This document shows positions 18,501 through 42,276 of a DNA stretch of 64,000 nucleotides, in pieces; position 1 is the stretch's first letter; each line of letters opens with the position of its first letter. Both the position numbers and the translations under genes were made by a program. Under the pieces are notes generated by a model that saw nothing but the letters and a program-made list of their open reading frames with translations, was not told where the DNA came from and did no database searches. Source of the DNA: Zygaena filipendulae. Lineage: Eukaryota > Arthropoda > Insecta > Lepidoptera > Zygaenidae. Location of the stretch: assembly GCA_907165275.2 (NCBI GenBank), contig OU015659.1, positions 6,986,501 to 7,050,500 on the forward strand. Reading direction: 5' to 3'.

Positions 18501-21436
18501 TCTATGTAGTGATACATATATGTATATATAAACACACCCAAATCGCAAAAAACCCTGTGTTCATCACACAAAGCCTCCCCCCCACCGCAAATCGAACCTG
18601 GAATCTCTTGATTAGCGGGTAGGCATAGTGACCTGCTGCACCAACCAGGTTGTTATAATCGTCATATTATCTAATTCCAGGTAGACGAGTGTGCGCGGCT
18701 GTGGGTGCTCGACGCTGGCAAAATAGGAGACGTGCAGCGCTGCCCGCCGCAGCTGCTGGCCTTCGACCTGGAGAGTGACAAGCTCCTCTACAGGCACAAG
18801 TTCAACAAGACCACCTACTCCGATTCATCACTTTTTATCACTCCTGTACGTATGAGGATCGTCGTAACTGTAATTTTGCGTACACGTTGTCAGGAGTACA
18901 AAAAAGGACATAGGGTACTTATATTCCGGAATACTTATGACAAAAAGTGGTGTTCCGAAAGGTCCGCGCTGATAAAATTCACGTCTGTCATCACACCTAA
19001 AGCTAAAAGATAGAGAGCTTATATACATCAAAACACATTGCAGGTGGTGGACGTGCGAGGGCGTGCCCCCGCGGACTGCAGCGACACGTTCGTGTACAGC
19101 GCCGACGTGTCCGGCTTCGCGCTCATAGTCACGGACGTAGCTCGGGATCGCTCTTGGAAGATTTCGCATCGGCTCTTCTACCCCTTCCCTTCGCGGGGCA
19201 CCTTCACCATTGATGGTAAACATAATTTTCATTACTCATGCTCGGAAAGTAGGTCTGAAGTTGCCTGAGAAGCGGGTTGAAAGTAGCCCTTTTCAGCCCT
19301 AGGGAGAATCGCTTTCAACTGACAACTGTCAAATTATTAAAAAAAAACTAGGTCTATTTTCACATTTCTATTGAACCATGTTTCAACTTTCTATACAGCC
19401 AGCGCGATGTAAAATTGAAATAACGTAAAGTTTAAGTAGGTATTAATTAAAATAAAATTCACTCACTTTTTCTTAAGCTAATTCCTATTTATATTTTTTT
19501 ATTTTCTTTAATTAATACTTAATAATTAAAGAAAATATTTTTTTTAGGTCGCCACTCGCCACAATGTAAATAAAAAATACTGGCTGAATAGCTAGCCGGC
19601 CAAAGAAAAAGAAATAGGTGGGAAAGTGTCAAGCGACTATCCGATCTTCACTCATTTTTTCTTTAGCTAATTCCTATTTTTATTTTGACTTTCCTTGCAT
19701 TCGTAATGAAAAGCACAGTGTTACCCTCGGGAGAAAGTAACTTAACAAACCCTGTCTCGGCACTAAATGAGTTACTTTCACCCCTTGGATAACAATGTAC
19801 TATTAATACTTTACAATCATTGATATATTAAAAAACCCTATATCAATGTTTACAATATATAAACTATAATGATTCCTCATAAAATAAAAATAAAGGTTTA
19901 CAATTTGTGGTTAAGGTGACAAAATTTTCATCATAATCATAATTTGTTGCAAACGACTCCTTATTTGATTTGCACTGAACTGTAGGTATCATTTATTTCT
20001 ACAATTATTAATAACCGTAGCCATAATTTTCTTCTGAGATAAATTCTTGATTAATATCATTTCTATAATTATGATCCCCAAAAAAAGTTTACAATTTATG
20101 GTTTAGGTGAAACCATTTCTACCATCGTAATTTGTTACGAGTATTAACGACTCCTAATTTGATTTGACCTTGAGCTTCTTAAAAAAATTCTAGGTCATCA
20201 TTGAGGTAAACGACGTTAATTCGATGCGAATGTTATTTTCCAATATAGACGAGAGTTTCGACCTGATGGACGGTGTGCTGGGCATGGCCCTGTCTCCCTG
20301 GCGGAATGATGACCGTTACCTCTACTTCCACGCGCTCGCCTCTACCACTGAAAACGTCGTGCGCACTAAAATTATAAGAAACGATTCATTCATTGCAAAC
20401 CCAAACGCTCAAGCCAATTCTATTAGAGTAAGTCTAATGCTTAGTAAGTAGTACCTAGTGGTTACATTTTATTGGTGAAAGCGGCAGACTTAATGCCTAT
20501 AATCGGGTAAAGCGCGGTTGAAATAAAAGTTTTCTGATGTTGTGACAAATATCTACTTACCAATGATGATTAAGGCACTAATATGCAGCTGTGTAAAGAG
20601 TCAAACTAGTTTTTATAGCGACAAAAATGTTCACAGATATTTCACTACAAAAAATCAATCTAAGAACATGTAAATATGGTACCTACCTAAATTTTGCAGC
20701 ATTCAAATTTGATAGGTATTAAACAATTTTAATGTTTAAAAAACTGGCACTTTTGGCGTTTATACGGCAGAATTATCATAAAGATCGAGTTATTTATTCG
20801 ATATTTCCATCACTATTCAGCAGTCATTTTGTTTTCCAAGTAAGAAGCTAGTTTTCGAGAGAGAACCGCGTTTCGTCATAATTACATTAATGGCAAAATG
20901 GCAAAATTAAATGCGAAAAATCGAGATTGATTGCCATAATTGAAAAATAAGAAGAAGAAAACAAAAGTTGCTACACTTTAATTTCGTTTAATCCTCAGGT
21001 GTTTCCCGATGAAAGGCCTATACAATCTGCGGCTGAGGCAATGGATCGCAACGGAATTATGTACTTTGGACTTATGGAACCACCAAGTATATGGTGCTGG
21101 AACTCTGCTACCGACTTCACACAGAGCAACTTCCATCGCCTCGCTATTGATAGAGAAACTTTGCAGTTCGCTAGTGGCATTAAAGTCGTTACAAATGTTA
21201 AAGGCGAACAGGAGCTTTGGGTACTCACTAGCAGTTTCCAAAGAGTCATGACTGGAACTTTGAGTTCCGATAGAGTGAATTTTAGGATTCACGCTGAAAA
21301 TATACCTAACCTACTAGAACAATCTCCTTGCAGAAATTTCCCAAAGGATCGACTCACGGGTCACCATGCCAATCTCATAGCCCCAACGGATTTCATACAA
21401 TTTTCTTCGAGATATGGTCTTGAATCGTATCTTTAG
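12546..21436 (+). CDS. yellow/MRJP-family protein, gene A (six coding exons, 447 aa)
   Basis: Coding exons: 12546-12765, 15752-15921, 18681-18845, 19044-19215, 20249-20427, 20999-21436. All donors are GT and acceptors AG, phases agree, and the total is 448 codons with stop. The start is the first ATG after an acceptor-like TTGTTGCAG at 12513, suggesting an upstream non-coding exon. The N-terminus has a hydrophobic signal-like segment (RFFLLSYCLACCWPGL). MRJP/Yellow hallmarks follow: VPIDVDVQ, RIFVTIPRF, CDGLTSVFRVA, RLWVLDAGKIGD, RCPPQLLAFDL, ESFDLMDGVLGMALSPW, DRNGIMYFGL. Yellow proteins are secreted and act in cuticle pigmentation or development; exact role here is unknown. The VPIDVDV and ESFDLMDG blocks recall the yellow-b/-c/-d side of the family, but I cannot assign the orthologue. 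Five introns, against three in genes B and C, set it apart. Its introns carry a LINE, a MITE and many small repeats. Confidence 0.85.
13169..14776 (-). mobile_element. Non-LTR retrotransposon fragment: RT end, RNase H and C-terminal tail
   Basis: Lies antisense in intron 1 of yellow gene A. An open frame (14395-13169, 408 codons) encodes an RNase H domain with the four expected acidic positions in order: FTDGSK, AEYVGI, SDSMS and GHSDSRGNDVADELA. A Cys-rich tail (CKVCMRAEETAAHMLLEC) follows, as in LINE ORF2. Upstream, around 14740-14776, another frame gives NADDLAILV, corresponding to the RT active site, and NPTKTELVMF, but it is separated from the RNase H frame by a stop and frameshift. The element is 5'-truncated and dead. 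RNase H plus this tail points to an I/LOA/R1-type clade, not resolved further. Confidence 0.85.
15131..15425 (-). repeat. ~300-bp dispersed repeat, copies at 46620 and 56960
   Basis: Shared words: GATCGATACTGATGCCAAAA, GCAATCAGTAA, a (GTCT)n run, TTTTAACCAAACTTGGTAC, GTCCATACTCCTGGGCAGGT and TAGGAGCTGAGCAGTGACGA. Inverted copies are at about 46620-46925 and 56960-57295. No coding frame. The family is unnamed here; it is probably the end of a larger element. Confidence 0.7.
15430..15615 (+). repeat. CCGCGG-type repeat in intron 1 of yellow A
   Basis: A near-complete copy: CAATCACGCAAAAACGGCTG, TTTGGCATGCACGTTGTCAG, TAGGGTACTTTTTATCCCGG, and the end GAAACCGCGGGGCACAGCTA. It stops about 135 bp before exon 2. 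It gives a good picture of the family's usual order of words. Confidence 0.75.
16690..18330. repeat. Cluster of CCGCGG-type repeats in intron 2 of yellow A
   Basis: At least five copies: about 16695-16900 (inverted), 17000-17112 (direct), 17222-17450 (inverted), 17960-18123 and 18135-18333 (direct). Between them 17477-17680 is an inverted copy of the 2073-2283 family, with a poly-C run of about 14 at 17504. Alternating orientations may allow the intron RNA to fold strongly. Confidence 0.7.
18338..18366. repeat. (AAT)n microsatellite
   Basis: About nine uninterrupted AAT/ATA units directly after a CCGCGG-type repeat; such runs often mark the 3' end of retroposed copies. Likely polymorphic in length. 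Confidence 0.85.
18571..18652 (-). repeat. tRNA-like sequence, probable SINE-head remnant
   Basis: On the minus strand the order is CCTGGTTGGTGCAGCAGGTC (box-A-like TGGTGCAGCAGG), then TTCCAGGTTCGATTTGC (box-B-like GGTTCGATT). Spacing is tRNA-like, but I could not fold a full cloverleaf with an anticodon arm, so it is not called a tRNA gene. It ends about 30 bp before exon 3 of yellow gene A. Confidence 0.4.
19235..19805 (-). mobile_element. ~570-bp element in intron 4 of yellow A, inverted mate of 9781-10380
   Basis: Inverse of the element at 9781-10380, matching from CATTACTCATGCTCGGAAAG to CTTGGATAACAATGTACTAT with minor differences. It begins only about 20 bp after the exon 4 donor (19216), so the intron's 5' end is almost entirely transposon. 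No coding frame. Confidence 0.75.
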
Positions 21437-21739: not shown

Positions 21740-22513
21740 CTAAACGGATTGCTGCAGTATATCTGTATACATCTGTAATTTTCTTGCAATGCTCATGTCG
21801 ATGTGTTTGTCTTCAACACCTACTATCATACCACCGATAATAGACGGATCTACTTTCTCAGTCAGCTGTATGTTTTTACCGCCCTTTACAAATTTCTGTA
21901 GCGCATCCATAAGAGACTTCCTCGTACCATCATCAAGAGGCTTTGCTGTGATCACTTCACACAAAGCTTCATTTCTGTGTGCAACCATGACAGCAAGGAA
22001 CATATTTATCATCCGTCTGAGCATCTTTAAACGACCGTTTTCTGCTACTATCTCTAAAAAGTTTGCTGCAGCATCCGGCATATCTTATGGATTGTTGAAA
22101 GAATAAACAAATTAAAATTAATAAATATGATCATTCCTTTCACGAAATAAAATTAATTGTTACCAGCTTGTTTTGCGACATCTTTAAGAAGTTTAGCTTT
22201 GGCAACCGACGACATCATACTAGACTCTATGAAGTCTACCACTTTGGGCTTAACTAATTCTTTTTGGAGACTGCGAAGATGCTTTTCTACTTCGTCAATT
22301 TGATTCATTTGGAGAGCGGCACTATATAAGGCTGATACGTAACGCCCCTCTACGCCTGTTTGTTGATGAAAATACCATAACTATGTGGCAATGGATATTT
22401 TTTAATCAATACAAGCAATATGTAGAAATGAAGCTTTACTAACCAAAGACAGGTATGGGAGGTTTCTTTGACTGGGCTGCTTTACACATGTACCTTACGA
22501 ATACACGAATCAT
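21740..22513 (-). CDS. ATP synthase subunit O (OSCP), divergent paralogue, 201 aa
   Basis: Exons in transcript order: 22513-22444, 22355-22164, 22083-21740. Both introns have GT donors and AG acceptors in phase 1. OSCP is the mitochondrial F1Fo stalk subunit that joins the F1 head to the peripheral stalk. Recognisable family features are the PxPVFGVEGRYVSALYSAA start, LLKDVAK, the NGRL segment, and the C-terminal KVDPSIIGGMIVGVEDKHID. The length (201 aa) is close to the usual ~210. The Met-Ile-Arg-Val-Phe-Val-Arg start is basic and could be a short mitochondrial presequence. Several positions normally conserved look changed (KLQMYTDIL near the end), so I take it as a diverged, perhaps tissue-specific copy and not the housekeeping gene. 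It is intact. It sits about 300 bp beyond the stop of yellow A, convergent with it, and a broken duplicate lies at 23123-23387. Confidence 0.8.
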
Positions 22514-22906: not shown

Positions 22907-23122
22907 AGAACAGCTTTCTCTAACGTACCTATACATAAAGCGATTGAGCGGTGAGCGCCTTCACAGGTTGTTTTCTTTTCGATTTATTTATTTTATAGGA
23001 AACTTTTTTAATATATTTTTTAAATATTTTTTTAAGTATCTTTTTTGTAATAATTATAAAGATGTTTAAGACGGTGTTTTTTCAACCCTGTAAATATTTG
23101 CAGCTAATTTTGCCTCATCTTA

Positions 23123-23387
23123 TATTTATCATCCGTCTGAGCATCTTTAAGTGACCGTTTTCTACTACAAACGCAAAAAAAGTTTGCTGAAGCATCCGGC
23201 GGCATACCTTATGGATTGTTGAAACTAAACAAATAAAAAATTTAGTAAATATAAATATTATGCCTTTCATAAAATAACATTAATTGTTACCAGCTGGTTT
23301 TGCGACATCTTTAAGAAGTTTAGCTTTGGCAATCGACAACATTATAGGTAGGTACTAGACTCTATAAAGCCTACCACTTTGGGCTTA
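23123..23387 (-). pseudogene. Truncated duplicate of the OSCP paralogue (exons 2-3 with intron)
   Basis: Matches 22003-22252, covering the start of exon 3, the whole second intron and part of exon 2, in the same order and strand. Shared words: TATTTATCATCCGTCTGAGC, CTTATGGATTGTTGAAA, TTGCGACATCTTTAAGAAGT. Small insertions (for instance TAGGTAGGTACT at about 23345) and changed codons break the frame; exon 1 and the C-terminal half of exon 3 are missing. Intron retention shows DNA-level duplication, not retroposition. Confidence 0.8.
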
Positions 23388-24104
23388 GAAAAGAAAGAAA
23401 GAAAACTACATTTATTCCAGCACAACACACAAGAAAAAACAAACATTCAACAAGTTGGATTACCCATTGGTATCTTGCATGCTCGCCGAAAGGGACAGCA
23501 ACTCAGCATTAGCTAAGTGTGGGTACTACACCTAGCGCTGGTTTTCAGTTGGTAGCCCGTTGTCACGCACGGACAACAACAGAAGGAGAAAAATGAAAAC
23601 CAAAACTATGTAACATACAAATGGAAACATACATATAAACATAAACATATACATAAAAAATACAAATAGTAGATATAGATACAAATAAGTAACTAATAAT
23701 CGAATAAACATTATATACCTAATATAAAGTAAATATAACATGACAAACTTCTAAAAATGCATTTATTTATTTCCTAATTGTATTATAAAGTAGTGTATTA
23801 AGAATACTTTCGCATATCGCCAGGAACCTGCACGAAATATAATCCTAGTAATATTATAAATGTGACAAGCCAAATATGGAGTAGATATTGTGTAGATGGG
23901 CTAATTCCACTCCCGCCACGAGCTCGTCGTGAGAAGAGCAACCCATGTGGGCAAACACAAGCGGGCTTGGCACCGAATTCAAACCAATCAGTGGTAGCAC
24001 AAACCAATAATAACATTACGTGTATTTGGATTAAATCAGTATTTTTTAGCTTTTTAGTTTTGTGTTTTTGGAAGTCGGTTTTTATTTTTTTGTTAAACTT
24101 TTGT
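23388..24104. repeat. Transposon-derived insertion between the two duplicated blocks
   Basis: About 23390-23565 (GAAAGAAAGAAAACTACATT, GCACAACACACAAG, GGTATCTTGCATGCTCGCCG, GCACGGACAAC) looks like the 3' end of a LINE. About 23855-24060 is related to the MITE interior at 7080-7220. The stretch replaces what would be OSCP exon 1 in the second duplicated block. Confidence 0.5.
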
Positions 24105-27200: not shown

Positions 27201-28434
27201 TATTCTATTGGACGCTTGCAGTACAGTTCTTCATATTCGAGTATGAGGTTGTGACGACTTCTACGCCACAAGTCACGAACTATAACGAAGCGACGAATAC
27301 TAACTATGTAAGTGAATCTCACTAATGAAGTTTTCAAATTGCGCTGCATAAATACGATCTCCGACGATCTACAGTGGGAGCCGCGGTTCCCCGGGCATAC
27401 CACCTCGCCCGGCGGGAAGCTTCCCCTTTGGTGGCGGTCGAGCCATATCATCCATCCTGCTCCTGCTACAGTGGTGATCCCAACGTGATTGGAAGCAGCC
27501 TTCATCACCAACATTATGCAGCCTTCTCCACCTCCTCCAGCAGTCCCCGGAAGCAATTTCACGCCAACTACGGGTCAATCTTCAGGTCCAACGCAGCCGG
27601 CGCACCGAGCTTCCTGGTCCTGATACCAAGCACCCGCACCTCACCGACTGGATCCCCAGCGTGGCATTCCGGCAGGAGATTTTCTGGCGCCAACAATTCG
27701 GCATCGCTCAATACAGTTTCATCTTACCGCAGACCACAGAGCAAAGCAATGTACACCCGACTCACTGGGATATAGCGACACACGACCCGAATCACTGGGA
27801 CATTCAACTGGCAATTGAGATAACTGAGCTTCGGACTATCAGACCTTCGGTCTAGGGAGGGAATACTGTGGTGATCTCTACGCCACAAGTCACGAACTAT
27901 AACGAAGCGACGAATACTAATTCGTGAATCGCACTAACGAAGTTTTCACATTGCGCTGCATAAATACGACTTCCGACGATCTACAGTCGGAGCCGCGGTT
28001 CCCTGGGCATACCACCTCGCCCGTCGGGAAGCTTCCCCTTTAGTGGCAGTCGAGCCATATCATCCATCCTGCTCCCGCTACAAGGTTATCGCTACTCTTA
28101 ACAGGTCTATGTCTTTGCTCAATGATAGGTGAGTGATTCGATTTATACCTTTAGGGTATAGGTAGAAGTGGAGTAGATTAGGCCTAAGGGTCTATCAAAC
28201 ACATTTAAAATAGTTTTGAAACACAAACATCATACCTCTAGCCATACTCAAAGCAATGTACCATTCGGGATCCCTTGAAGGTTTCTTCTCGTAGTATGCT
28301 AAAATTTTGTCCAATGTAACAGACAATCTATACACTTTCGGTACATTATATATGAAGTCCTGTGTGTCGAAATATGGGTAAATGGCGGAGGTAGTACTCG
28401 TTAGTGCTAACAAGGCGATATATACTGCGAACAT
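24239..28434 (-). CDS. C16orf89 / UPF0764 homologue, secreted protein, six exons, 370 aa
   Basis: Exons in transcript order: 28434-28236, 26844-26695, 25865-25713, 25542-25249, 24953-24784, 24385-24239; all have GT-AG borders, phases 1,1,1,1,0, total 371 codons with stop. The N-terminus (MFAVYIALLALTSTTSA) is a clear signal peptide. Family hallmarks: the Cys-rich block CELTSECAEQLVKGSGLAFQ, then IxxxLFCSSQGYGEFIKPRW, MNKIVSWQEPKGCY, and a final Cys-containing helix (SEGGTCNSLTSAMALG). The vertebrate relative C16orf89 is a secreted protein of uncertain function, so no molecular role is claimed. Length fits the family (about 360-400 aa). Intron 1 holds a small LTR element. The last exon also has a decayed duplicate at 22771-22906. 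Confidence 0.85.
24425..24600. repeat. Partial CCGCGG-type repeat in the last intron of C16orf89
   Basis: ACTAGCTTTTGCTCAAGC and AGTTTCACCCGCGTGAATTT mark a partial copy; ATGCTGAATTTCAGTTTGA is shared with about 36870. Confidence 0.45.
27250..27470 (+). repeat. Left LTR of the TRIM-like element
   Basis: TGTGACGACTTCTACGCCAC at the start and TCCTGCTACA at the end; pairs with 27867-28082. Confidence 0.85.
27867..28082 (+). repeat. Right LTR of the TRIM-like element
   Basis: TGTGGTGATCTCTACGCCAC at the start and CTCCCGCTACA at the end; a few substitutions and a 5-bp length difference from the left LTR. Confidence 0.85.
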
Positions 28435-29134: not shown

Positions 29135-29299
29135 ATGGCAGTGTCTCATCAGTGGTTTGTGCAGTGGTCTTCGCCACCCGTGGTATTCACAGATATCACT
29201 AAACATTACGATAATTTGAACCAACGCTGGTACGGTATTGAATCGCATAGGACTATAACTGCTTTAGGTGTGACTTCACAAGACAACCACAATGACTAT

Positions 29300-29410
29300 T
29301 GAAGTAAAGGAAACACGTACGTTCGTTGCACTCGTTTATTGCAGACAAAACGGTCGTTGCTAATAATACATATCTACCTGTCTTACATATTTATATCTAC
29401 CTACATCACA
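29300..29410 (-). repeat. 3' LTR of the Gypsy element
   Basis: 111 bp, TG...CA termini as read on plus (TGAAGTAAAGG ... CTACATCACA). Identical to 33659-33769. Confidence 0.95.
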
Positions 29411-29421
29411 ACCCTCCACCC
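29411..29421 (-). other. Polypurine tract of the Gypsy element
   Basis: GGGTGGAGGGT on the minus strand, directly abutting the 3' LTR; the expected primer for plus-strand DNA synthesis. Confidence 0.75.
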
Positions 29422-29533
29422 TTAATTAATGCTTACCAATATTAATACAGCAAGATAAATGCGAATTTTACAGTTCCATTAACTTAATATTACTAATGTT
29501 TAACTTATGATACTTAATACTAACTATGCTATA

Positions 29534-32500
29534 TTACAGATTGTAACGGGGAGGGTTTCGCAACCGACATTCTCGTATGGGGCGGGACTGAGGCGACTTC
29601 ACGGGCGGTGTCGCGACTACTTGTTCGCAGTCGTCGGGCGCTGGCTCTAGCGGCCCTGTGGGCCTCGGTGACCCCTGTGTTTCTTCTGCTCCGCCGTCCT
29701 CTTGCCCCTGCTGGGCCATAGTAGGTGGCAGTGGGCTACCTGGTGGCGATTCGGAGGAACTACGTTCGGCCTGACTACCCGGGCCCGCCAGAGAGCTTCG
29801 CGTCCGCCGTCTTAACTGATCGATATGTTTATGATACTCCCTACCTCCCTGATCCGAGACTCTATAGTCCGTAGTACCTAATTTTTGGGTAACCTCGCCC
29901 GGTTCCCACTTCCGTCCCCTCTGATACTGTCTCATCCACACTTCGTCCCCCGGCTGTAACGTACGCTCTGTTCCTCCGTTTTGCACTTTTTGTCGTTCTT
30001 GCGCCCTCCTGACCCTGTCTTCCCTAACCGGCCTCAGGGCATCTAGTTTCGTACGTAAACGCCTTCCTAGCATGAGTGATGCGGGGCTCTCCCCCGTCGA
30101 GCAATGCTCCGTGTTTCTATAATGTAGTAGAAAGGTGTTTAGGAACCCGTGAATATTTGCATTCTGTCGCTGTGCTTTTTTGATAGCTCTCTTTATCGTC
30201 CGCACCGCATTCTCCGCGGCCCCGTTAGAAGCTGGGTGATACGGGGCGGAAAACACATGTTCTATTCCCTGTTTCGCTAAGAATTGCGCGAATTCGCTGC
30301 TCGTAAAGGGTGGACCATTGTCCGAAACTATTTGTTTAGGTACGCCCCATCTAGCGAAAACTTCATAACATTTATCAATAGTGTGACCAGCGGCCGTACT
30401 CGGGACCGGAAACACCTCCAACCACTTCGTCCTAGCGTCTATCATGATTAGATACATCTTGTCAAAAATCGGTCCTAAAAAATCAAGATGAACCCGCGAC
30501 CAAGGCCGCGCCGGCCACGGCCATGCGCTCGCCTCGTGGCGCGGCGGCGCGTCCGCCTCCGCCGCGCACACTGCGCACTGCCGGCACGTCGCCTCGACCG
30601 CTTCGTCGACGCCCGGCCACCATACGTAACTCCGAGCCATCGCCTTGGTTTTTACTATACCCATGTGGGGTTCGTGCAACTCTTCCAATACCTTGTTCCT
30701 ACAACTTTCGGGTATTACAACGCGGTAGCCCCACATGACACAACCCAACTCTTCGTATAACTCTTTTCTACGATTGTAGTAAGGCTGAAGCTCTCTGATC
30801 TCGTTATCCGCCGGCCATGCGTCTCTTATATACATTAACACTTTACTTAATATAGTATCTCGTGCCGTTTTTTGTTTGATGGTGTTGTGATCTAATAACA
30901 AGGCGTTCTGCGCAAAATGTAAGTATGTTTGTTCGGGTATAACCATTTCGTCGGCGGCCCCGCCCGGCACGGGCAAACGCGACAAGCCGTCCGCGCCGTT
31001 CTGCTTAGTGTTCACGTATTCTATGTCATATGTATAAGCTGATACGATGATCGCCCAGCGCTGTAGCCGGCTCGCCGCCATTGCTGGTATTCCATGTTTC
31101 GGCCCGAATATGCTCACCAGGGGTTTATGATCAGTACGCAGGGTGAAACGTCTGCCATATAGGTATTGATGAAATTTTTGTAAACAGAATACAATAGCGA
31201 GGGCTTCCCTCTCTATCTGTGAATAGTGCCTCTCCGCCGCATTGAGCGCGCGCGACACGTACACGACGGGGCGCGCGGCGCCGCCCGCGCCCTGCTGCGT
31301 GAGCACGCCGCCCACGCCGCGCGCGCTCGCGTCGCACGTCAGCACCAGCGGCCTCTCCGGGTCGTAGTGTGTTAACACTTCCGCGCTGGTTAATATCCGT
31401 TTTACTGCCCGGAACGATTCTTCACACTGGTGACTCCATTTCCAAGGGGCATCCTTTTTTAAAAGATCATATAGTGGGAACAGAATGGTACTCAAGTTCT
31501 TCACAAATTTAGCGTAAAAATTAACTAACCCTAAAAAGGATCTCAATTCGGAAATATCGCTCGGTTTAGGTATTTTTACAATGGCCGCCACTTTTTCGGG
31601 GTCCACTCGAACTCCCTCTTTCGTTATGATGTAACCCAAATACTTTACTTCCTGTACTAAGAATGCACATTTGTTTCTTTTCAATTTTAATCCATGCTCT
31701 TGTAAACGTCGTAATACGTTTTCTAGTGTGGACAGATGCTGCCTACTCCCCCCCCGCGTACCTATGATGATATCGTCCAAAAATACCTCTACCCCCGGTA
31801 TATCACCTAGGAGTCCTGACATGATCCGCTGAAATATGCCCGGACTCGAAGACAACCCAAATACTAGTCTATTGTACATGAATAAACCCCTATGTGTGTT
31901 AATTACTGTCAGTGATTTCGAGTTATCTAGTTCTATTTGGTTATAAGCTTGAGATAAATCGATTTTTGAAAATATTTGGGCGCCGTTCAAGCTAACCAGA
32001 AGGTCATCGATTTTAGGCAAAGGGTATCTATCGACCAGTAAGACGGGGTTTAGTGTGATTTTATAATCGGCACAAATACGAAGTCCTCCGTCCGCCTTAC
32101 GTACCGGTACCAGGGGGGTGGCCCAGTCCGAGGTGTCCACGGGCTCGATGATGCCTTCCCGCAGCATGGCGTCCAGCTCGGCGTCCACCCGGCCCTTGAG
32201 CGCGTAGGGCAGGGAGCGCGCGCGGCAGAACACCGGCGTGGCGCCCTCGCGCAGCCGCAACGTTGCCTTGCCGCCCGTGAATCGCCCCAGTCCGCCGCTG
32301 AACACCTCCTTAAAACTATCGAGTAACACTCTTAAGTCATCACCACACTGATTACTATTCTCATTATTAATATTAAAATTACAATTGTAAAACTTAGGGA
32401 TATCCATTTTTAATTCCGATAGCCATTGTCGGCCCAAAAGTGAAGTAGTTCCCCCTTCTATTACAAACAATTCCAACTGTTTATTTATATTTTCATATTG

Positions 32501-33604
32501 AACCCACGGTTTAATGAATCCTAGGGGCTTTATATTGCTACCATCATAGAATTTTAACACTAAATAGTTTTTTTCTAACTTTCTCTTATAAAAATATCTA
32601 TCGTAGGTAGTTTTACTTATGCAAGAAACGGACGACCCAGTATCTACTTCCATTTTAATATTAATTTTATCGATTAACACCGTGACGCTTACCGGTCTAT
32701 ACGCGTTTAAGCTGAGAGTATGCATCTCCTCCTCCACTTCGGAAGAGTTATCTTCGACTTCTTCGCGTTGCGACGTCTCCACGTGATTCACTCGCCTCCG
32801 CGCCCCGCTCGACCGCCCCGCGGATTGTGGACAGACCCGCTTTAGGTGGCCCCGTTGTCTGCACCTGCTGCACACGAACGTCCGGTACCGGCAATTCTCA
32901 CTGCTATGGCCCCGCCAACCGCATGATTCGCACGGCGCGCCGTTCCTGTCGCCGCTCCCGCCGCTCGGCCCGGCGCGCTGCCGCCCGCCGCCCGGCGCAC
33001 GCGCTGACGTCACCGCGTTCACGGTGCTCGCGGTAGCGGCCGCCGCTCCGCCCGCGCCGACACCCAGCTCGCCGCAAGCCGCCCCGCGCTCCACGGCCGC
33101 CGCGTCTCGCTCCGCCGCTTCCAATGCGCTCGCTAACTTGATGGCTGCTGTGTAATTTAAATTATCTTCGGCGAATAGCCGTTGCCTAATGACCTCGCTT
33201 TTGACTCCACAGACTAGTTGATCTCTTAAGTTTTCTTCTAAGCTGCTACCAAACTCACAGTACCTGGCCAGTTTTTTTAATTCGGTTAAATAGCTTGCTA
33301 TATTTTCTTCGCCATTTTGTCGCCTTTGTCTAAAGCGATAACGTTCCGCCATTACTGATGGTTTGGGCTGCAGGTGAGTGCGTAATATTTTTATGGCGTG
33401 TTCGTACATCAATTCGGCTGGCTTCTTAGGGCTCGATAAATTACTCAGTAATTCATACGCTTCGTCACCCATTCCCGCTATAAGCGTCGGCAGCCACATC
33501 TCTTTGTCCACCTTGTTCACTTTAAAAAACATTTCTAAGCGCTCCACATAAAGACACCAATTTCCAGATCTTACATTAAATTCTCTCACTTTTCCGCACG
33601 ACAT
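29534..33604 (-). CDS. Gag-Pol polyprotein of the Gypsy element, 1356 aa
   Basis: A single open frame with gag and pol fused. Order of parts: gag; two CCHC zinc knuckles at about residues 225-238 (CESCGWRGHSSENC) and 244-257 (CSRCRQRGHLKRVC); aspartic protease with DTGSS near 321; reverse transcriptase with FLDDI (Asp pair at about 610-611, the usual YxDD replaced by FLDD); RNase H with TCDAS near 758; integrase with an HHCC finger from His 977 and catalytic Asp 1041, Asp 1095 and Glu 1131, giving the classic D,D(35)E spacing. A basic C-terminal region with a Pro/Ser-rich tail follows. No stop or frameshift is present, so it may encode working enzymes. It is GC-richer than surrounding DNA. 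Confidence 0.95.
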   Translation of the reverse strand: MSCGKVREFNVRSGNWCLYVERLEMFFKVNKVDKEMWLPTLIAGMGDEAYELLSNLSSPKKPAELMYEHAIKILRTHLQPKPSVMAERYRFRQRRQNGEENIASYLTELKKLARYCEFGSSLEENLRDQLVCGVKSEVIRQRLFAEDNLNYTAAIKLASALEAAERDAAAVERGAACGELGVGAGGAAAATASTVNAVTSARAPGGGRQRAGPSGGSGDRNGAPCESCGWRGHSSENCRYRTFVCSRCRQRGHLKRVCPQSAGRSSGARRRVNHVETSQREEVEDNSSEVEEEMHTLSLNAYRPVSVTVLIDKINIKMEVDTGSSVSCISKTTYDRYFYKRKLEKNYLVLKFYDGSNIKPLGFIKPWVQYENINKQLELFVIEGGTTSLLGRQWLSELKMDIPKFYNCNFNINNENSNQCGDDLRVLLDSFKEVFSGGLGRFTGGKATLRLREGATPVFCRARSLPYALKGRVDAELDAMLREGIIEPVDTSDWATPLVPVRKADGGLRICADYKITLNPVLLVDRYPLPKIDDLLVSLNGAQIFSKIDLSQAYNQIELDNSKSLTVINTHRGLFMYNRLVFGLSSSPGIFQRIMSGLLGDIPGVEVFLDDIIIGTRGGSRQHLSTLENVLRRLQEHGLKLKRNKCAFLVQEVKYLGYIITKEGVRVDPEKVAAIVKIPKPSDISELRSFLGLVNFYAKFVKNLSTILFPLYDLLKKDAPWKWSHQCEESFRAVKRILTSAEVLTHYDPERPLVLTCDASARGVGGVLTQQGAGGAARPVVYVSRALNAAERHYSQIEREALAIVFCLQKFHQYLYGRRFTLRTDHKPLVSIFGPKHGIPAMAASRLQRWAIIVSAYTYDIEYVNTKQNGADGLSRLPVPGGAADEMVIPEQTYLHFAQNALLLDHNTIKQKTARDTILSKVLMYIRDAWPADNEIRELQPYYNRRKELYEELGCVMWGYRVVIPESCRNKVLEELHEPHMGIVKTKAMARSYVWWPGVDEAVEATCRQCAVCAAEADAPPRHEASAWPWPARPWSRVHLDFLGPIFDKMYLIMIDARTKWLEVFPVPSTAAGHTIDKCYEVFARWGVPKQIVSDNGPPFTSSEFAQFLAKQGIEHVFSAPYHPASNGAAENAVRTIKRAIKKAQRQNANIHGFLNTFLLHYRNTEHCSTGESPASLMLGRRLRTKLDALRPVREDRVRRAQERQKVQNGGTERTLQPGDEVWMRQYQRGRKWEPGEVTQKLGTTDYRVSDQGGREYHKHIDQLRRRTRSSLAGPGSQAERSSSESPPGSPLPPTMAQQGQEDGGAEETQGSPRPTGPLEPAPDDCEQVVATPPVKSPQSRPIRECRLRNPPRYNL

Positions 33605-33639
33605 TATTATTATTATGTATTTTTTTTTCTAAATTATAA

Positions 33640-33657
33640 TATTTTTACTCGTCGCCA
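33640..33657 (-). other. Primer-binding site candidate of the Gypsy element
   Basis: One base inside the 5' LTR the minus strand reads TGGCGACGAGTAAAAAT; the TGG start complements a tRNA CCA end. The tRNA was not identified. Confidence 0.55.
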
Positions 33658-33658
33658 C

Positions 33659-33769
33659 TGAAGTAAAGGAAACACGTACGTTCGTTGCACTCGTTTATTG
33701 CAGACAAAACGGTCGTTGCTAATAATACATATCTACCTGTCTTACATATTTATATCTACCTACATCACA
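33659..33769 (-). repeat. 5' LTR of the Gypsy element
   Basis: 111 bp, identical to 29300-29410 base for base as read. Confidence 0.95.
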
Positions 33770-34037
33770 ACTATTATGACCCGAGTACATCATATTATGA
33801 TAAGGATGTCATAAATAGTAAACGTTATTTTTACCAAACAAAACATGAAGGAAGGCCCAACAACGGTAAGTATATTGTTAATGCCTTACAATCTTTTATT
33901 TTTTAAATAAAATTATTAATATTATTATTACATTACTAGTTGTTAAAAGCAACAACTTTTTTTAATTAAATTATTTTTATTAATCATTAATTGTTGCTCT
34001 TTTTTATATATTTAATGGTTTTTTTGCAAATTAGAGA

Positions 34038-34282
34038 CTTACCGCCGCACTCAGAGTCAACTTTAATGATTACTTAGTTAAGTATAGATTTTTAAAACAA
34101 AACTGCCGCAATCAGACAAGTTTAATAAATTAATGTTAATTGGCATTTAACTAATTAAGTTACATCTCATTAAATGCCAATTAACATTAATTTACTGAAC
34201 GTCTCTGATTGTGACAGTTTTGTTTTAAAAATCTATACTTAACTAAGTAATCATTAAAGTCGACTCTGAGTGCGGCGGTAAG
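34038..34282. mobile_element. Palindromic MITE, half copy at 44519-44640
   Basis: Ends CTTACCGCCGCACTCAGAGT and its inverse ACTCTGAGTGCGGCGGTAAG. Arms of about 85 bp pair almost perfectly (TTTAATGATTACTTAGTTAA, AGTATAGATTTTTAAAACAA), and the centre (TTAATGTTAATTGGCATTTA) is itself a smaller inverted repeat. No protein. A single arm plus centre recurs at 44519-44640. Confidence 0.75.
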
Positions 34283-35140
34283 TGTCATACAAATATGTAG
34301 ATCGACAAGTAGTAATTAAGTGACAAATATCCAAATATTTTTATTTACGAAATGGATGATTTATTGAAAAATTTGAAAGGAGAATCAAATTTACCATAAG
34401 TTTAAGTAGGTACTTATGATCAATTTGTTATGGATGGTTTAAGATCATCACAAAATATTGGAATATATATAGGTACTTAGGTATTTTTTTGTCTACGGTG
34501 AAACTGTGGTTTGAGGATTATTTTTTACATTATGATACTCTCTATGTTAATCCTACATTATTCACCTTAATATATTGATGTACTAATAGTACATTTGGTA
34601 CCGTACGATGTTTTTCAACAACTCTTGTGAGGGCGCTAAGATAAGGTAGGTTCTAAAGTAGGTACTTTAACTTAACGTAGGTTGCGGAAAGCCGTCACAA
34701 AGTAGGTAAAAGTGTATAAAGTACAAATAATATCTAAAATAAGGAGGCAAACTGACCACTAGTGGGTTATAGCGTATAACTCACACGTGTTTTAACAGCT
34801 GCTTTCTCTAAAACCGGGGAGTTTAGATGAAAGAGTGTGTTGAAAAAACTTTTTACGTTGTTATATCAATGCCTTAACACTTTTACTTGTACGATCTGTG
34901 AATTTTTAAATGACATCTACTACAGTGAGCCAATTCACGGCGGCTCGATTATGTTTCATAGCAAATTTTGCAACTTTTATTTGAATATTTGCATGGTTGC
35001 ACGCTTCTATTAGGTATCATTAAAATAAATTTACCTAAGTAGGTAACTAAAGCTAAATATTTTTTGTGACTGCAAATAACCAACATTGAGCCGCAACAGC
35101 CTCGGTCGTAGTATGCAGCAGAACTGCGATAGTTTTCTTT
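34283..35140. other. Intergenic DNA, nothing recognised
   Basis: AT-rich, without supported exons or clear repeats apart from short TAGGTA words. Confidence 0.4.
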
Positions 35141-35365
35141 ATGCTAGCTATCATCATACCTATCGAGGTGATGCTTAGTAGCGAAAAATGCTGGAAACGA
35201 GTCAACGCATTCATCACCTCAATAATGAAACAGAAAGAGGCCTACGAACGCGAGGAAGAAAAACGCACGAGGGAAACTTATGTTTTAGTCTGTGTGAGTC
35301 GGACACTCCCTGCCAACACGGGCTGGCAGGGGTCCATAAGGGATTTTCCCCTGCTCACGTAAAAA
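35141..35365 (+). mobile_element. Possible LINE ORF2 C-terminal fragment
   Basis: One frame reads EVMLSSEKCWKRVNAFITSI then MKQKEAYEREEEKRTRE, which resembles the charged C-terminal tail of R1/jockey-type LINE polymerases (pattern: Trp, then Lys-rich, then Glu/Arg-rich). No RT or endonuclease is nearby, so only the 3' end would remain. Low-moderate confidence because the resemblance is from general memory of the family. Confidence 0.4.
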
Positions 35366-35615
35366 AAAAACTATCATCATACCGATCGACAAAATAACAA
35401 ACTATCTGAAAATATATCGCGAGGGATAGCTAGATAGCTGTCCCTAGCGTGATAGCGTGACACGTGATTTATTCAGGAATATTTTTTAAGCAATGCGCAA
35501 AAAAATTTTGGTGGTTGAGTATCAGAACACATTTCCATTATTTGTTCAAAACTTTTTTATATTTTTTTATCCGGTTTTAAATTAGCAAAATATGGACACT
35601 ATCTATTCGTAATAA

Positions 35616-35765
35616 TATCAAAATGGCGCGCGCGCCGTGCGGCGTACGCGGGGGTGTTGCAGCGGGGGTGAACGACCTTGATCAGCTGTCGGTACATTGT
35701 AACCTACGTAAATACCTAGCCGAACGAGCGCTTCACGCGCAGCGATGGCGGCGGCGACTAGAGTA
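35616..35765. other. Small CpG-rich patch
   Basis: About 150 bp much richer in G+C and CpG than its surroundings (GGCGCGCGCGCCGTGCGGCG, CGAACGAGCGCTTCACGCGC, ATGGCGGCGGCGACTAGAG). Open in frames on both strands, so no coding claim is made. It may be a promoter-type or repeat-derived patch. Confidence 0.35.
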
Positions 35766-36769
35766 GCCAATAAATCAATTGCAAAATATACATCTTTCAT
35801 TCCCGATAACTTTAGTTTTTTGTACTTAGACTTATCAAAATAAAAAAGGTGTTTATTAAAACTCCTTTAAGTTCAATTTGTAAAAGTTTGCGCACTGAAT
35901 AAAAAATATTCCTGTATATATTAAGATAAGATATATTACAAAGTCTCGAACTTTTTTGATGACAAAAAGCTATTTTAATCGATAGTTTTGAAAAGAGCAA
36001 CCCAAGTACTTTTTATCCGTCTCTTCTCTTGAAAAATTTGATGGCAGGTAAGTGAAACATAAACATGTTTTGACTGACAATGTGATGATGTAAAAATTTT
36101 ACACATTTCTGACTTGAGAAATTCCATAAATATTTTGAGTTTGAGTTTAAAAGTAATTTGTGGTTAATTTGCAGTAAATAAATAATATAATCGAAGTATA
36201 CGGATATATGTAGGTATCTACTCGTAGAATATTTTCCATAAAATTGTTTTAATTAATGGAATATCGATGATATGGAGTGAACCTATATATGGTCTTTATC
36301 TCGTAAGTACTTAATCATTCTTGTGTAATACCGACAGACGCGTGCAGTTAATGCCTAACCGGTGAAAGTATCTTAGTGTTGTACCTATGTTGAATAAAAT
36401 GCAACGTAAGTGTTGACCAAAACGAATTTATTTTCGGCTTGAAGATTTTACACCAAAAGGAACCCTTACAGAATCACTTCGTTGTCCTTCTGTCTGTCTG
36501 TCGGTCTGTTTGTGAACCTTTTTCTCATATAGGAACGCGTTGAAGAAGAGATCAAGTTGAAATTAATATCAAGTACACAAGTTTGCAATCCCTTGAAGCT
36601 ACGACAAAATCAAACTTAACAAAAATTTACAAACCTATAGTTTACCTAGAATACAGCAAGCAATGGCAATGGCAAGAAGCAGTTTTATAGCACAAGTAAA
36701 GGCAAAAATTCAAACACCGTAAATTTGTAGCTATCCCCACAAAAAAAATGGAATTATAAACTTATCTAC

Positions 36770-37030
36770 TAGTCATTCCCGCGGGAACTCCCAAATAGAA
36801 AAACGCGGGTGAACTCCATAAATTCTGGTCTTAGCTTACGTCTCCTGCCCATAAACTATCTAGGTACAAGTAAGTATCTGCGGAATTTCAGTTTGAAAGG
36901 ACCAGTATAATATACTAGCTGCTTCACGCGGTTTCACTCGCGTTAATTTCGGAGTTCCTGTGGAAACATTATCTCCTTCTATGTATCCCTGATAACGTGT
37001 ACCTACTTATGCCTATAATTTCCTAGGCGT
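36770..37030. repeat. Two partial CCGCGG-type repeats
   Basis: Partial copies at about 36775-36815 (CATTCCCGCGGGAACTCC) and, inverted, 36913-37030 (ACTAGCTGCTTCACGCGGTT, CGTGTACCTACTTATGCC). No coding sequence. Confidence 0.55.
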
Positions 37031-37290
37031 GAAAGCGTAATGCGCTTATTACACTTTGCAATTTCAGGACACCAATTTAGGGCTCTAAATCGGATAACAT
37101 AAGGGTCTGTGAGTGAGAGAAAGAAAGCGAGTAATCACACTACACCAAATTGTACCCTAAATCGACTACTCTAGGGTACATTTTAATGTAGTACGATCAC
37201 TCGCTCTCTCTCTCACTCACCGACCCTAAATTGTATCCAATTTAGAGCTCCAAATTGGTGCTCTGAAATTGCAAGGTGTAATAAGCGCTT
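37030..37290. mobile_element. MITE with TIRs GCGCTTATTACACTTTGCAA / TTGCAAGGTGTAATAAGCGC
   Basis: Arms extend well inside the ends: CACCAATTTAGGGCTCTAAA pairs with TTTAGAGCTCCAAATTGGTG, and AGTGAGAGAAAGAAAGCGAG with CTCGCTCTCTCTCTCACT. Central TTGTACCCTAAATCGACTAC and TAGGGTACA also pair. No protein. Confidence 0.75.
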
Positions 37291-38201
37291 AAAAAACACA
37301 AACTCACTTTCTCATTTAGGTATTATTAGTTAGCAAACTGACCGCGACCTATATCAATACAATGTATGGGGACAAAAGATTTCCGACAGCAAAGTTTGAC
37401 CCGCAATACCTACAGTTTACGACGAATTATTTACATAAGTTTTATGTTTAACTTTGGTTTGCTACGTCTTTGTTTTCACTTTAAAATTCTATATTTAGTT
37501 TTTATTCTGTTGTAAGTGTAAATACATGTCAATAAACGGTTTTATTATTATTATTACAATAATAAGTTCACCGTTATAGTCTTTTCTTTTTAGGTAAATT
37601 TGATTAGGTGTCGAATTCATAATTGTCTTTGCTTTGCTCGTCTTTGTTAATTGTTTCTGTATCGTTTTGTATACCTATTGTAAACCAAACGAACGCAACT
37701 TATTAGAACAGAACGTTTCGTAACTTTGGTAGGTATTTTAATTATTATTTTGGAATAAACTTACATCATACTCAAGTACATACAATCTCAGACGAAATAA
37801 AAATAAAGACTTTTTATTTCGTCTGAGCATACAATAATAAAATTAGGATTAGTAATATCTGAAATAATGTTGTGTTCTAACATTTAACCCAGTAAAAATG
37901 TAGTTATTGCAGGAAATATAAGCTTTGTTATGTATAAATAAATAACTACATAAACGTAGTCGTCAGTGCAAAGTAAATAATCGAATACGATGTTTTTACT
38001 TTTGAATCATTGTTCTTTTTAAAGTTATAATAATAAAATCACAAGTTTATAAAACTTCACGATCGGACTCAAAATCATCATCACATCATTCTTAAACGAA
38101 ACGCAGACTAACAATAAGTGAAGTGATGATACTTTATATAATTTCAATATATCTTAATAAATTTTAAATTCAATGAAATAAAAAGCATTAGTTTAAATAA
38201 A
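37291..38201. promoter_or_regulatory. Upstream region of yellow gene B
   Basis: About 0.9 kb of AT-rich DNA between a MITE and the first coding exon. A TATA-like TTTATATAA at about 38133-38141 lies about 65 bp before the ATG (38202). It contains a short inverted pair CAGACGAAATAAA / TTTATTTCGTCTGA at about 37790-37827. Promoter assignment is inference from position only. Confidence 0.35.
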
Positions 38202-41200
38202 ATGATCACAGGTAAGTCCACATAGAAAGTTTATACAAGTAGGTATTAGATATTGCCAAATCATTGGTACGTAACAGATTTCTCTGTTGTTGTGATATTG
38301 ACAATGTATAATATGACCATTATACTCAACACAAACTCTCGTACTACCTATCTATAGCTATTTTAGATGGGTTGTTGTAAATTCGTCACATAGTAAATTG
38401 GTCACATTTTAAGATTACATAAATCTTATACATTATTTGGTTAATTATAATAAAGCCGTGACACGAAATTGTAAATTAAAAGATTAACATTTAGATTCTA
38501 GAAATGTAGATGATATATTATTATAGTGACTAAAATTTGACAAAAATTATAGTTGAAAGAGGTTGATAGTTGCTCTCATATTAAATGAATAGAGATACAA
38601 AACAATAATTTATAAGTAAAGCTAAAATATATGTTTAGAAGTTAAAACGTACCTATGTATATAAATATCAACTTGAGGATATTCTGAAAGTGATGAACAG
38701 ATATATCCTCCGATAGTCATTCAACAGTATTATAAATTTTATGTTTTTATCAATTTTAGAAGCAAAGCAGTTAGCAGGCGTGGCGCTATGGTTAGCGATG
38801 TTGGGTGTAGCGCAACCACAGTCAGTGCCCGCTGACACTGACACCCCACCTTTTAACACGCTCTACAAGTGGAAATACGTAGACTTCGAGTTCCTATCGC
38901 CAAATCATCGAAGGCATGCGCTTTCTAGCGGGTAATTTACTTTATTAATTAGGATTAAAGTTATATCTAGAGAGGGAGAGGTTTAGAGGGGCAACACATT
39001 AAGGTAATGCTATGATGAATATGGTACTAATCCTTACTGTTAGATATAGGGTAAAACCCGGATAGTTGCCACACTTTTCGAAATAGTTTTATATCTCCCG
39101 GTACATAAATCAAAATATTTTATTTTTTAAACTGGCAAGTACTTTGGTTCTTTATCTACAAATTTATTAAATGTAAAAGACATTATCTTTGAAATTTCCA
39201 GAGTATTAGCGATTTCTACGGACCTCTACTTTTTGTGACATCTATCCCATATATGGGATAGTTGCCTAGTCCATATAAATTACATTTAGGATAGACGCCC
39301 CGTCGGGAAACAAGGCATCTATCCCGAAAAATCTTTGATCTCACCTTGCGTTCCCGTGCAATCGCACAGAGACATGAGACGCAGTCCACTTAATAGTAGT
39401 TGGAAAGTCTTTTGATAGATAAATAAAATAGCACGCGATTCATCTGCGAAACTAGAGTAATTACGATCGGGGCAACTATACCCCCAGGGCAACTATCCTG
39501 GTTTTACCCTAAATACGAAAGTATTTGTTTGTTGGTTTGTTATTCACGCCTCAACGGCTCAAAGGATCATCATGAAATTTTGCATACACGTGTCGGGGAG
39601 TCACAAAAGGACATAGGGTACTTTTTGTCCCGGAATTTCTGCGGGATCTCCGAAATTACCGCTAGTGAAACCGTGGGGATAAACCATAAAAAATATTAAT
39701 ATAAAAGGAAATTATAAAATTCATCTGTAATGGTAAAAATATCATCAGTATCAATCTAATTATTCCACTTATCCTTATACTACTAGCTGTTACTCGCGGT
39801 AAGTAGGAAGTTCTCGCGGGAATTCCGGGATAAAAAGTACCCTATGTCCTTCTCTGTGCCCCTGAAAACGTGTATACGAAATTTCATGATGATCGGTTGA
39901 GCCGTTAAGGCGTGAAAGCGTAACAAACAAATAAAGAAACTCACTTTCGTATTTATAATTAGTAAAAAGGATTTAAATGCGAAAGTGAGTAGTACGATTA
40001 AACTTACATTAATTGTAAGGTGATTTTGGCGATTTTTCGACCCCTATCTTCCCCCTGGTGCGATGTTGTGAGATTTTGCTTAAACCCTCCCTTTCCCCTA
40101 ATCTCGAGTGAGATTTTTTCAAAATGCATACCTTGAGAGATTATATTATTTTATTTATCTTTACGCTTTCATGCCTTAACGGCTCAACCGATCATCATCA
40201 AAATTTTGCACACAGGTTGTCAAGGGTACAGTGGGGTACTTTTTGTCCCGGCATTCCCGAGGGAACTCCGAAATTAACGCGGGTGAAACCGCGGGCACAT
40301 CTATAGGCAACGATAAAATTAATTTAGTTACCTACCATATTTCATTTTAATTTTTCCAGTAAATTTGTGCCAGAGAATGTATTGCCTTTGGGAATAGAGG
40401 TGTGGGGTTCCCGCGTGTGGGTGACGCTCCCGCGGTGGCGGCGCGGGGTGCCGGCCACGCTAGCGACGGTGCCCCGCGCGGGCGGACTGCCCTCGCCGCC
40501 ACTGAAGCCGTACCCGGATTGGAACTATCATGGCGCTATTAGTAAGCTCATTAATTTTTCGATATATGTTAGCAGAACCATCAGTCATTATTTTAATAAT
40601 TAGAATAGGTATAGGTAAATTCCAAGCGAATTTGTAATCATTCTATAAATACATATATTTTTGGCTGACATTAAAAAAAGCTACGTACGCGTACGGTAGT
40701 TAGGTCATTTTGAAAAGGAAGAAACTCAGTGGTTACCAAAGTATGGGTTGCCACCCATTGGTGGGTCGCGAGCGAATATTAGGTGGGCCCTGAAAACAAA
40801 ACTAAATAAATGGATGTACCTGTGTATCAAACTCATTGAGATTAAAAGTAACTAAAATTTACGTTGAGGATACCATGATATAAATAGTGGTGAGTCCCGA
40901 GTTTTTGGTATGTGGGTCGTGATCCAGTCAACTTTAGGAACCACTGAAGAAACTTTTTAGATAAATTATATATCTGGGGGCACGGTAGTGTTAATGAAAA
41001 AAAAAAGAAAAGAAAATTTGTCACAGCCAACTTACAACAACAACAAAAATCCCACTAAAAATATTACTAATTTATGAAAAAGAATGGGAAAAAAATTTGT
41101 TTGTTCAAATTTTGGGTATCTATTGGATTAATCTAGAAAACGGTGCTGTGAGCGTGGGTCATCGAGGTTATGATGACTCTCCAGAACTAATCGTTGTTCG

Positions 41201-42276
41201 TTTACTGGCAATTGGTTCACTGTTACGTAATTAAACTAGAGATTAAGTTTAATTCGTAGTTGTATTATGATCGGTGTAATTTACATTAAAGTGATTACAA
41301 CAAAAAAACTGTGGTATTTAAGTGTCTCTATTTTTTCTCTTTAGATATGGAAAAGAACTGTTCCGGTTTGACATCTGTATTTCGAGTGAACGCTGACCAC
41401 TGCGGACGACTCTGGATTTTGGATTCTGGACAAATCGATTCTCAAGACGAACCCAAACAATTGTGTCCACCCAGCATAGTAGTGTTTGATCTTCACACGG
41501 ACACTCTTGTAGCTCGTTATACTATCCCGGAAAAATATGTTTTACAAGACTCATTGTTTTCAAATATCATCGTGGACTCTCGTCATCATGATTGTTCGGA
41601 TATCCATGTCTATATAGCAGACACTTGGCGATTTGGGCTGCTCGTTTTCAGGCAAAGAGATGAACAATTTTGGCGATTCTCACATCATTTATTTTATCCG
41701 GACCCTCTGGCTTCGAATTATACTTTACATGGACTTAATTTTCAATGGGCTGATGGTATTTTTGGCTTAGCACTGACGCCTATTATTGAGAGTTATGACA
41801 GAATATTGTATTTTCATTCTATGTCGAGTTATAGAGAGTTTTATGTGTCTACCTCCATTCTGCAACAACCTTGGCGTGTGAATAATAGTGCGACCGAGTT
41901 TAGCCTCATCGGTGAGAGTAGAGGACTGTCTGGTCAGTCCTCAGCATCAGCTATCGATAGAAGAGGCGTGATGTTCTATGGTCTAGTCAGTAAAGATAGT
42001 ATCGGTTGTTGGGACACGAGGAAGCCATACCTTAAGAGTAATTTGGGTGTGGTCGCTTCTAATTCAGAGACGCTTGTATTTCCTAACGACTTAAAAATCG
42101 ACCAAGATAAATACCAGAGTGTGTGGGTCATATCGAATCGTCTGCCAATGTTTCAAGACGGTCCCTTAGATCCTGATGATTATAATTTTCGGATAATGCA
42201 CGCAGATTCTAAGGAAGCGGTCAGGCAGACTGTATGTGACCCATTGGTAGAGCCGTCTGCAGAGCAGGGCTATTGA
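38202..42276 (+). CDS. yellow/MRJP-family protein, gene B (four coding exons, 431 aa)
   Basis: Coding exons: 38202-38211 (10 nt), 38760-38931, 40360-40541, 41345-42276; phases 1, 2, 1 agree and the total is 432 codons with stop. The tiny first exon ATGATCACAG is inferred because it supplies a start and the correct phase. A hydrophobic signal-like segment (LAGVALWLAMLGVAQ) follows. MRJP hallmarks: TLYKWKYVDFEF, LPLGIEVWGSRVWVTLPRWR, GVPATLATV, PPLKPYPDWNYHG, CSGLTSVFRVNADHCGRLWI, LCPPSIVVFDLHTDT, LHGLNFQWADGIFGLALTP, SIGCWDTRKPY. The conserved domain is mostly in one large last exon. Secreted, presumably cuticle or pigment related. It shares exon plan, length and many blocks with gene C, so the two are tandem duplicates. 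Subfamily (e.g. yellow-e or -h type) not decided. Confidence 0.9.
39500..39965. repeat. Two CCGCGG-type repeats in intron 2 of yellow B
   Basis: A direct copy at about 39510-39685 (CACGCCTCAACGGCTC, CATAGGGTACTTTTTGTCCC) is followed by an inverted one at about 39783-39965 (CTAGCTGTTACTCGCGG, AAAGTACCCTATGTCCTTCT). The two can pair as an RNA hairpin. Confidence 0.65.
40150..40310 (+). repeat. CCGCGG-type repeat near the 3' end of intron 2 of yellow B
   Basis: TTTACGCTTTCATGCCTTAA, CAACCGATCATCATCAAAAT and GAAACCGCGGGCACATCTA; ends about 50 bp before exon 3. Confidence 0.65.
40727..40946. mobile_element. hAT-type MITE, 220 bp, with perfect 8-bp target duplication
   Basis: Starts CAGTGGTTACCAAAGT and ends ACTTTAGGAACCACTG, the classic hAT terminal motif. 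It is flanked on both sides by AAGAAACT (40719-40726 and 40947-40954), the 8-bp duplication typical of hAT transposition. No transposase inside. It lies in intron 3 of yellow gene B. Confidence 0.85.

Follow-up and report, generated by a model that had tools for sequence, protein, structure and literature searches.

Analysis of a 64-kb window of the Zygaena filipendulae genome (the whole stretch of 64,000 nucleotides, to which all positions below refer) pointed, with a probability of about 0.85, to the recent entry of a Mag-like Ty3/Gypsy retrotransposon, in antisense orientation, between codons 55 and 56 of the exon that encodes the N-terminus of the long yellow-h2 isoform, with a predicted isoform-specific loss and not a null allele. 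A sequence-only reading had described a recent gene disruption at this place; a real, conserved coding frame is indeed broken by a young element, but the gene could be recognized as yellow-h2 and the broken exon is predicted to belong to its long isoform only.

The frame starts at an ATG at position 29135 (plus strand), directly preceded by ATA and with in-frame stops upstream, and stays open for 55 codons up to position 29299, codon 56 (29300-29302) being a TGA supplied by the LTR of the element. After the second copy of the ACTAT target site duplication the same frame restarts and continues for 30 codons and one base (33775-33865, plus strand) to a donor, ACG/GTAAGT, which was outscored by just six of the 3794 plus-strand GTs in the window (all donor scores were obtained with a splice-donor weight matrix). 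These 55 and 30 codons, together with the TGA, confirm the open frame of about 85 codons that had been reported as split at a codon boundary, with a stop in the first bases of the insertion.

Conservation of the joined frame in relatives, on which the sequence-only reading had made the disruption depend, was found as well. Homologues were collected with a 430-residue model beginning at the ATG at 36041, which yielded 345 proteins at an E value of 0.001 or better, the best 120 of which were used. The joined peptide, starting MAVSHQWFVQWSSPP, aligned from its first residue with the first residue of 23 of these 120 homologues (E values of 4.6e-15 to 5.9e-8), namely 21 from named Lepidoptera and two unnamed. 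Against a profile built from these 23 orthologous N-termini, leaving out the sequence from the window, the joined 86 residues scored 71.3 bits and the first 55 residues 66.5 bits, compared with at most 11.0 bits for 1000 shuffles. Moreover, a separate search with residues 1-86 alone among 5.8 billion sequences returned a protein from Mythimna loreyi (E = 1.6e-6) as the sole significant match; since this search needs shared exact words, the single match is no gauge of the frequency of the head. In non-coding DNA close by, about one in ten randomly chosen stretches of 31 codons had no stop (1763 of 16794), so the second half of the frame alone could be open by chance. For the open frame across the insertion as a whole, chance was rejected as having a practically negligible probability, contradicted by the 23 orthologous matches from residue 1 and the significant head-alone search, and also by the profile scores relative to shuffles.

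The two parts of the exon differed in how they are supported. The conserved portion of the head comprised approximately residues 1-32, the linker beyond being variable. When residues 56-86 were swapped for shuffles of themselves, 301 of 500 sequences scored at least as high as the real one against the profile, indicating that residue order adds nothing, and when they were swapped for random stop-free translations 17 of 500 did so. The exon status of 33775-33865 is thus supported by phase, donor strength, total length and composition, and not by residue order. As to length, the joined frame places 117 residues before the conserved anchor, compared with 92-122 in the 23 orthologues. The joined frame was also considered as a separate small protein and this was rejected: the 87-residue peptide had no match among proteins of about 48-152 residues and none in Pfam, and its PDB matches were antibody light chains alone, with E values no better than 0.024, which were regarded as chance hits.

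A pattern describing the head, M..(W)(F/L)..W.P(P), which was drawn up after the sequences had been seen, was present in 38 of the 120 listed proteins and fitted by 3 of 12000 shuffles. The 38 proteins were the 23 mentioned above plus 15 with a looser form (13 from named beetles and two unnamed). It was absent from eight listed proteins of at least 440 residues outside the top 35, including four from sawflies or wasps, one from a stick insect and two from beetles. Among the matches listed the head is common to Lepidoptera and beetles, and none was seen in the Hymenoptera listed. Literature searches on yellow-h and yellow-h2 listed no paper recognizable as dealing with the conserved head.

Homology identified the split frame as the N-terminal exon of the long form of yellow-h2, a gene annotated in relatives as "dopaminechrome tautomerase-like". 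The nearest plus-strand coding exons downstream of the insertion were of the MRJP/yellow family, the open frame at 41290-42273 matching the Pfam MRJP family with an E value of 3.3e-99. In the gene model, supported by homology, these plus-strand exons comprised 38760-38931, which encodes LAGVALWLAMLGVA, the hydrophobic signal segment, together with the beginning of the mature protein, 40360-40541, and the last exon with the MRJP domain, 41345-42276. The phase was compatible (phase 1), with one base of the split codon left by the donor at 33865 and the other two provided from the acceptor at 38760, and the spliced long model had 513 residues, compared with 495-530 in the 23 long orthologues. In this model the head is hydrophilic and is followed by residues 89-104, the most hydrophobic run in the early part of the protein, so the signal segment of the long form is predicted to be internal.

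The top 35 of the matches listed were lepidopteran and named yellow-like, Yellow-h2 or dopaminechrome tautomerase-like, save for uninformative names and two unnamed proteins. Twenty-three of them had a head beginning M.[VLM][SA][HQ]QW and a length of 495-530 residues, and the remaining 12, of 409-456 residues, were without the head. One protein of this set (P0024) was named Yellow-h3, yet it grouped with yellow-h2 in the tree, and the closest relatives of the window protein among the matches listed were yellow-h2 and not yellow-h3. Identity to the best-listed yellow-h2 orthologues over the shared part was 76%. In a tree built from the region common to these proteins, the window protein grouped with three gelechioids (local support of 0.90 for the four and 0.85 with Tuta), although plain identity did not set the gelechioids apart (0.759 for Choristoneura and 0.752 for Hyposmocoma). 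The lepidopteran yellow-h2 proteins share with the moth gene both the long head, MAVSHQWF..QW, and the total length, the difference being that in the moth sequence the head-coding exon is split by a retrotransposon. Drosophila yellow-h is a reported dopaminechrome tautomerase (Barek et al. 2022, as cited in PMC10151491 and PMC10531651).

Downstream of the insertion, a probable second start was recognized. The donor at 36047 (ATGGCAG/GTAAGT) was outscored by one of the 3794 GTs, and positions 36041-36047 (plus strand) probably represent what is translated of an alternative first exon, belonging to a short isoform, as suggested by the donor score and by a layout like that of the short forms P0008, P0009 and P0023 in the list. 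Joined to the phase-1 acceptor at 38760, this exon would give MAEAKQLAGVALWLAMLG, an ordinary signal-peptide-like start, in a model of 430 residues. Short forms from gelechioids had the same layout (MKGARAAG in Pectinophora, MKRTKAAG in Tuta and MNYTKTTG in Hyposmocoma isoform X2), and all three gelechioids among the matches listed belonged to the 12 head-less proteins of the top 35. The segment 35996-36047 had been proposed earlier as a micro-exon following the 29135 frame; it is instead most likely the exon with which the short isoform begins, and the poor acceptor at 35996 would be explained because a first exon needs none. The proposal that the 29135 frame runs on into 35996-36047 as part of another small gene, with which the phase of that segment does agree, appears very improbable, since the orthologues join the head straight to the residues encoded at 38760, where the real follow-on of the frame begins, and since 36041-36047 supplies an ATG and an N-terminus of the kind usual in short forms.

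The position of the short-isoform start downstream of the insertion makes an isoform-specific loss likelier than a knock-out. Under the proposed mechanism, transcripts from the long promoter would end in a 55-residue peptide or be lost, and transcripts beginning near 36000 would still yield the 430-residue short isoform, with an ordinary signal peptide and a complete enzyme domain; carriers would be likelier to have lost the long isoform and kept the short one. What is lost would be the conserved hydrophilic head before the internal signal segment, and a resulting change in membrane targeting or anchoring is a guess. An effect of the insertion on melanin in the moth is likewise a guess.

Two alternatives concern the consequence of the insertion. 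According to the first one, this lineage had already silenced the long isoform or could do without it, and the element made a neutral hit, maybe fixed, in a decaying exon. This was considered rather unlikely. In its favour, Hyposmocoma, Pectinophora and Tuta were represented by the short form alone among the matches listed, and on that account the long exon may be less important in Gelechioidea. The label of the Hyposmocoma entry, isoform X2, suggests that a further isoform may exist. However, the short-only gelechioid entries are cluster representatives, so that long forms are not thereby absent, and the conserved start of the moth exon was intact in sequence and frame, which argues against long neglect.

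The second alternative involves a latent in-phase donor at 29267 (TAG/GTGTGA), spliced to 38760, by which the element would be removed in a 9.5-kb intron and the head kept at the cost of the linker. This donor is in phase 1, lies 32 bases upstream of the insertion and downstream of the conserved head (about residues 1-32), and scored 2.63, compared with 3.22 and -0.58 for two donors inferred in yellow-h2. Nevertheless, it is a weak donor, and the 29267-38760 splice would cut the length from head to anchor from 117 to about 77 residues, under all 23 orthologues (92-122), so that such a rescue seems quite improbable. Loss of the long isoform with retention of the short one was the preferred reading.

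Regarding the element itself, identical LTRs of 111 bp each, ended by TG...CA, were found at 29300-29410 and 33659-33769, which on the minus strand, antisense to the gene, are the 3' and 5' LTR, respectively. The complete element (29300-33769) was bordered by the ACTAT target site duplication at 29295-29299 and 33770-33774. Between the LTRs, gag-pol formed a single open frame that measured 1364 codons between its bounding stops (29534-33628, minus strand), with RVT_1, RT_RNaseH, Integrase_H2C2 and rve domains in two of the three pieces scanned. The reverse transcriptase piece matched RVT_1 (1.7e-26) and RT_RNaseH_2 (2.7e-24) in Pfam, and the piece after it matched Integrase_H2C2 (2.6e-14) and rve (2.3e-14); an integrase located after reverse transcriptase and RNase H is the order of Ty3/Gypsy elements. 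The gag piece had no Pfam family at an E value of 0.001 in a scan that left out 300 bases (32408-32707), and two CCHC knuckles and a DTGSS motif were spotted by eye in the translated frame. These results agree with the earlier description of a Gypsy element with identical 111-bp LTRs and an ACTAT duplication, and the element is, on its repeats and domain order, a Ty3/Gypsy-type LTR retrotransposon. Elsewhere in the 64-kb window neither the LTR nor the insertion flanks recurred, and the window gave no tRNA or Rfam match.

The primer binding site, TGGCGACGAG, lies one base inside the 5' LTR and presumably matches the 3' end of tRNA-Ser. In size, short LTRs, single frame and primer site the element resembles Mag. 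Elements tabulated as Mag in PMC3286476 had short LTRs, duplications of 4-5 bp and mostly Ser or Leu primers, and the moth element is like this lineage in its approximately 4.5 kb, short LTRs, single frame, 5-bp duplication and reverse transcriptase-RNase H-integrase order, features that make it a putative member.

The age of the insertion was estimated assuming a substitution rate of 2.9e-9. With no difference along the 111 bp of the LTRs, the 95% upper limit is 0.027 substitutions per site, which at this rate takes about 4.7 million generations; the unbroken gag-pol frame allows at most 0.015 per site, equivalent to about 5.2 million generations (substitutions alone counted). LTR identity and the intact frame make "young" a fair, if loosely bounded, label.

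A transposon found in a coding exon is commonly taken to have created a null allele. With a second start below the insertion, the allele described here would instead affect one isoform, as a naturally occurring mutant of a melanin-linked insect gene, the mechanism being ordinary (a transposon in an exon) and the interest lying in the target gene. It also draws notice to the conserved head, M.V..WF..W.PP, located before an internal signal segment and common to Lepidoptera and beetles. If the insertion were segregating, comparing natural carriers with individuals that lack it would tell apart what each isoform does, and if it were polymorphic its site would provide a simple genotype test. The broader proposal, namely that a segregating allele strips the long, ancient form of a melanin-pathway enzyme, leaving the short form, with a possible effect on colour and with the latent donor maybe keeping the head, was judged unlikely as a whole.

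Similar cases are known in other insects. In the Drosophila y2 allele, as described in PMC5666082, gypsy in yellow affects part of the output of the gene, as would be the case for the Gypsy element in this yellow-family gene of the moth; however, the y2 element sits between the enhancers and the promoter and acts via an insulator, whereas the moth element splits a coding exon. The Alba trait of Colias offers a lepidopteran example of a transposable element insertion linked to pigment (PMC6917731), while the moth insertion is not known to have a phenotype.

Other features were observed in the window. On the minus strand, an open frame at 13172-14425 with RNase H and zf-RVT matches represents remains of a LINE-type element, exons of the ATP synthase OSCP subunit were found at 21743-22380 (Pfam, 2.5e-28 and 7.2e-8), with an apparent decayed partial copy near 23120-23400 (by eye), and the start of a divergent gene with a signal-peptide-like N-terminus and no Pfam match was located at 28240-28434, about 700 bases upstream of the ATG at 29135. 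A 367-codon open frame at 49488-50588, also on the minus strand, had no Pfam match at an E value of 1. In the presumed intron after the donor at 33865, a near-perfect palindrome (34034-34286), with two arms of 117 nt that are 93% complementary and separated by 19 nt, looks like a small inverted-repeat element. Two further yellow genes were found on the plus strand: an MRJP/yellow gene at 15745-21436, with about 34-48% identity to the best-matching yellow-h2 and yellow-h3 proteins of the list, and another at 46179-49264, whose last exon (48239-49261) shared 79-82% identity with proteins of the list, including two that bear the name Yellow-h3. As judged from these identities, yellow-h2 and a yellow-h3-like gene are arranged in tandem.
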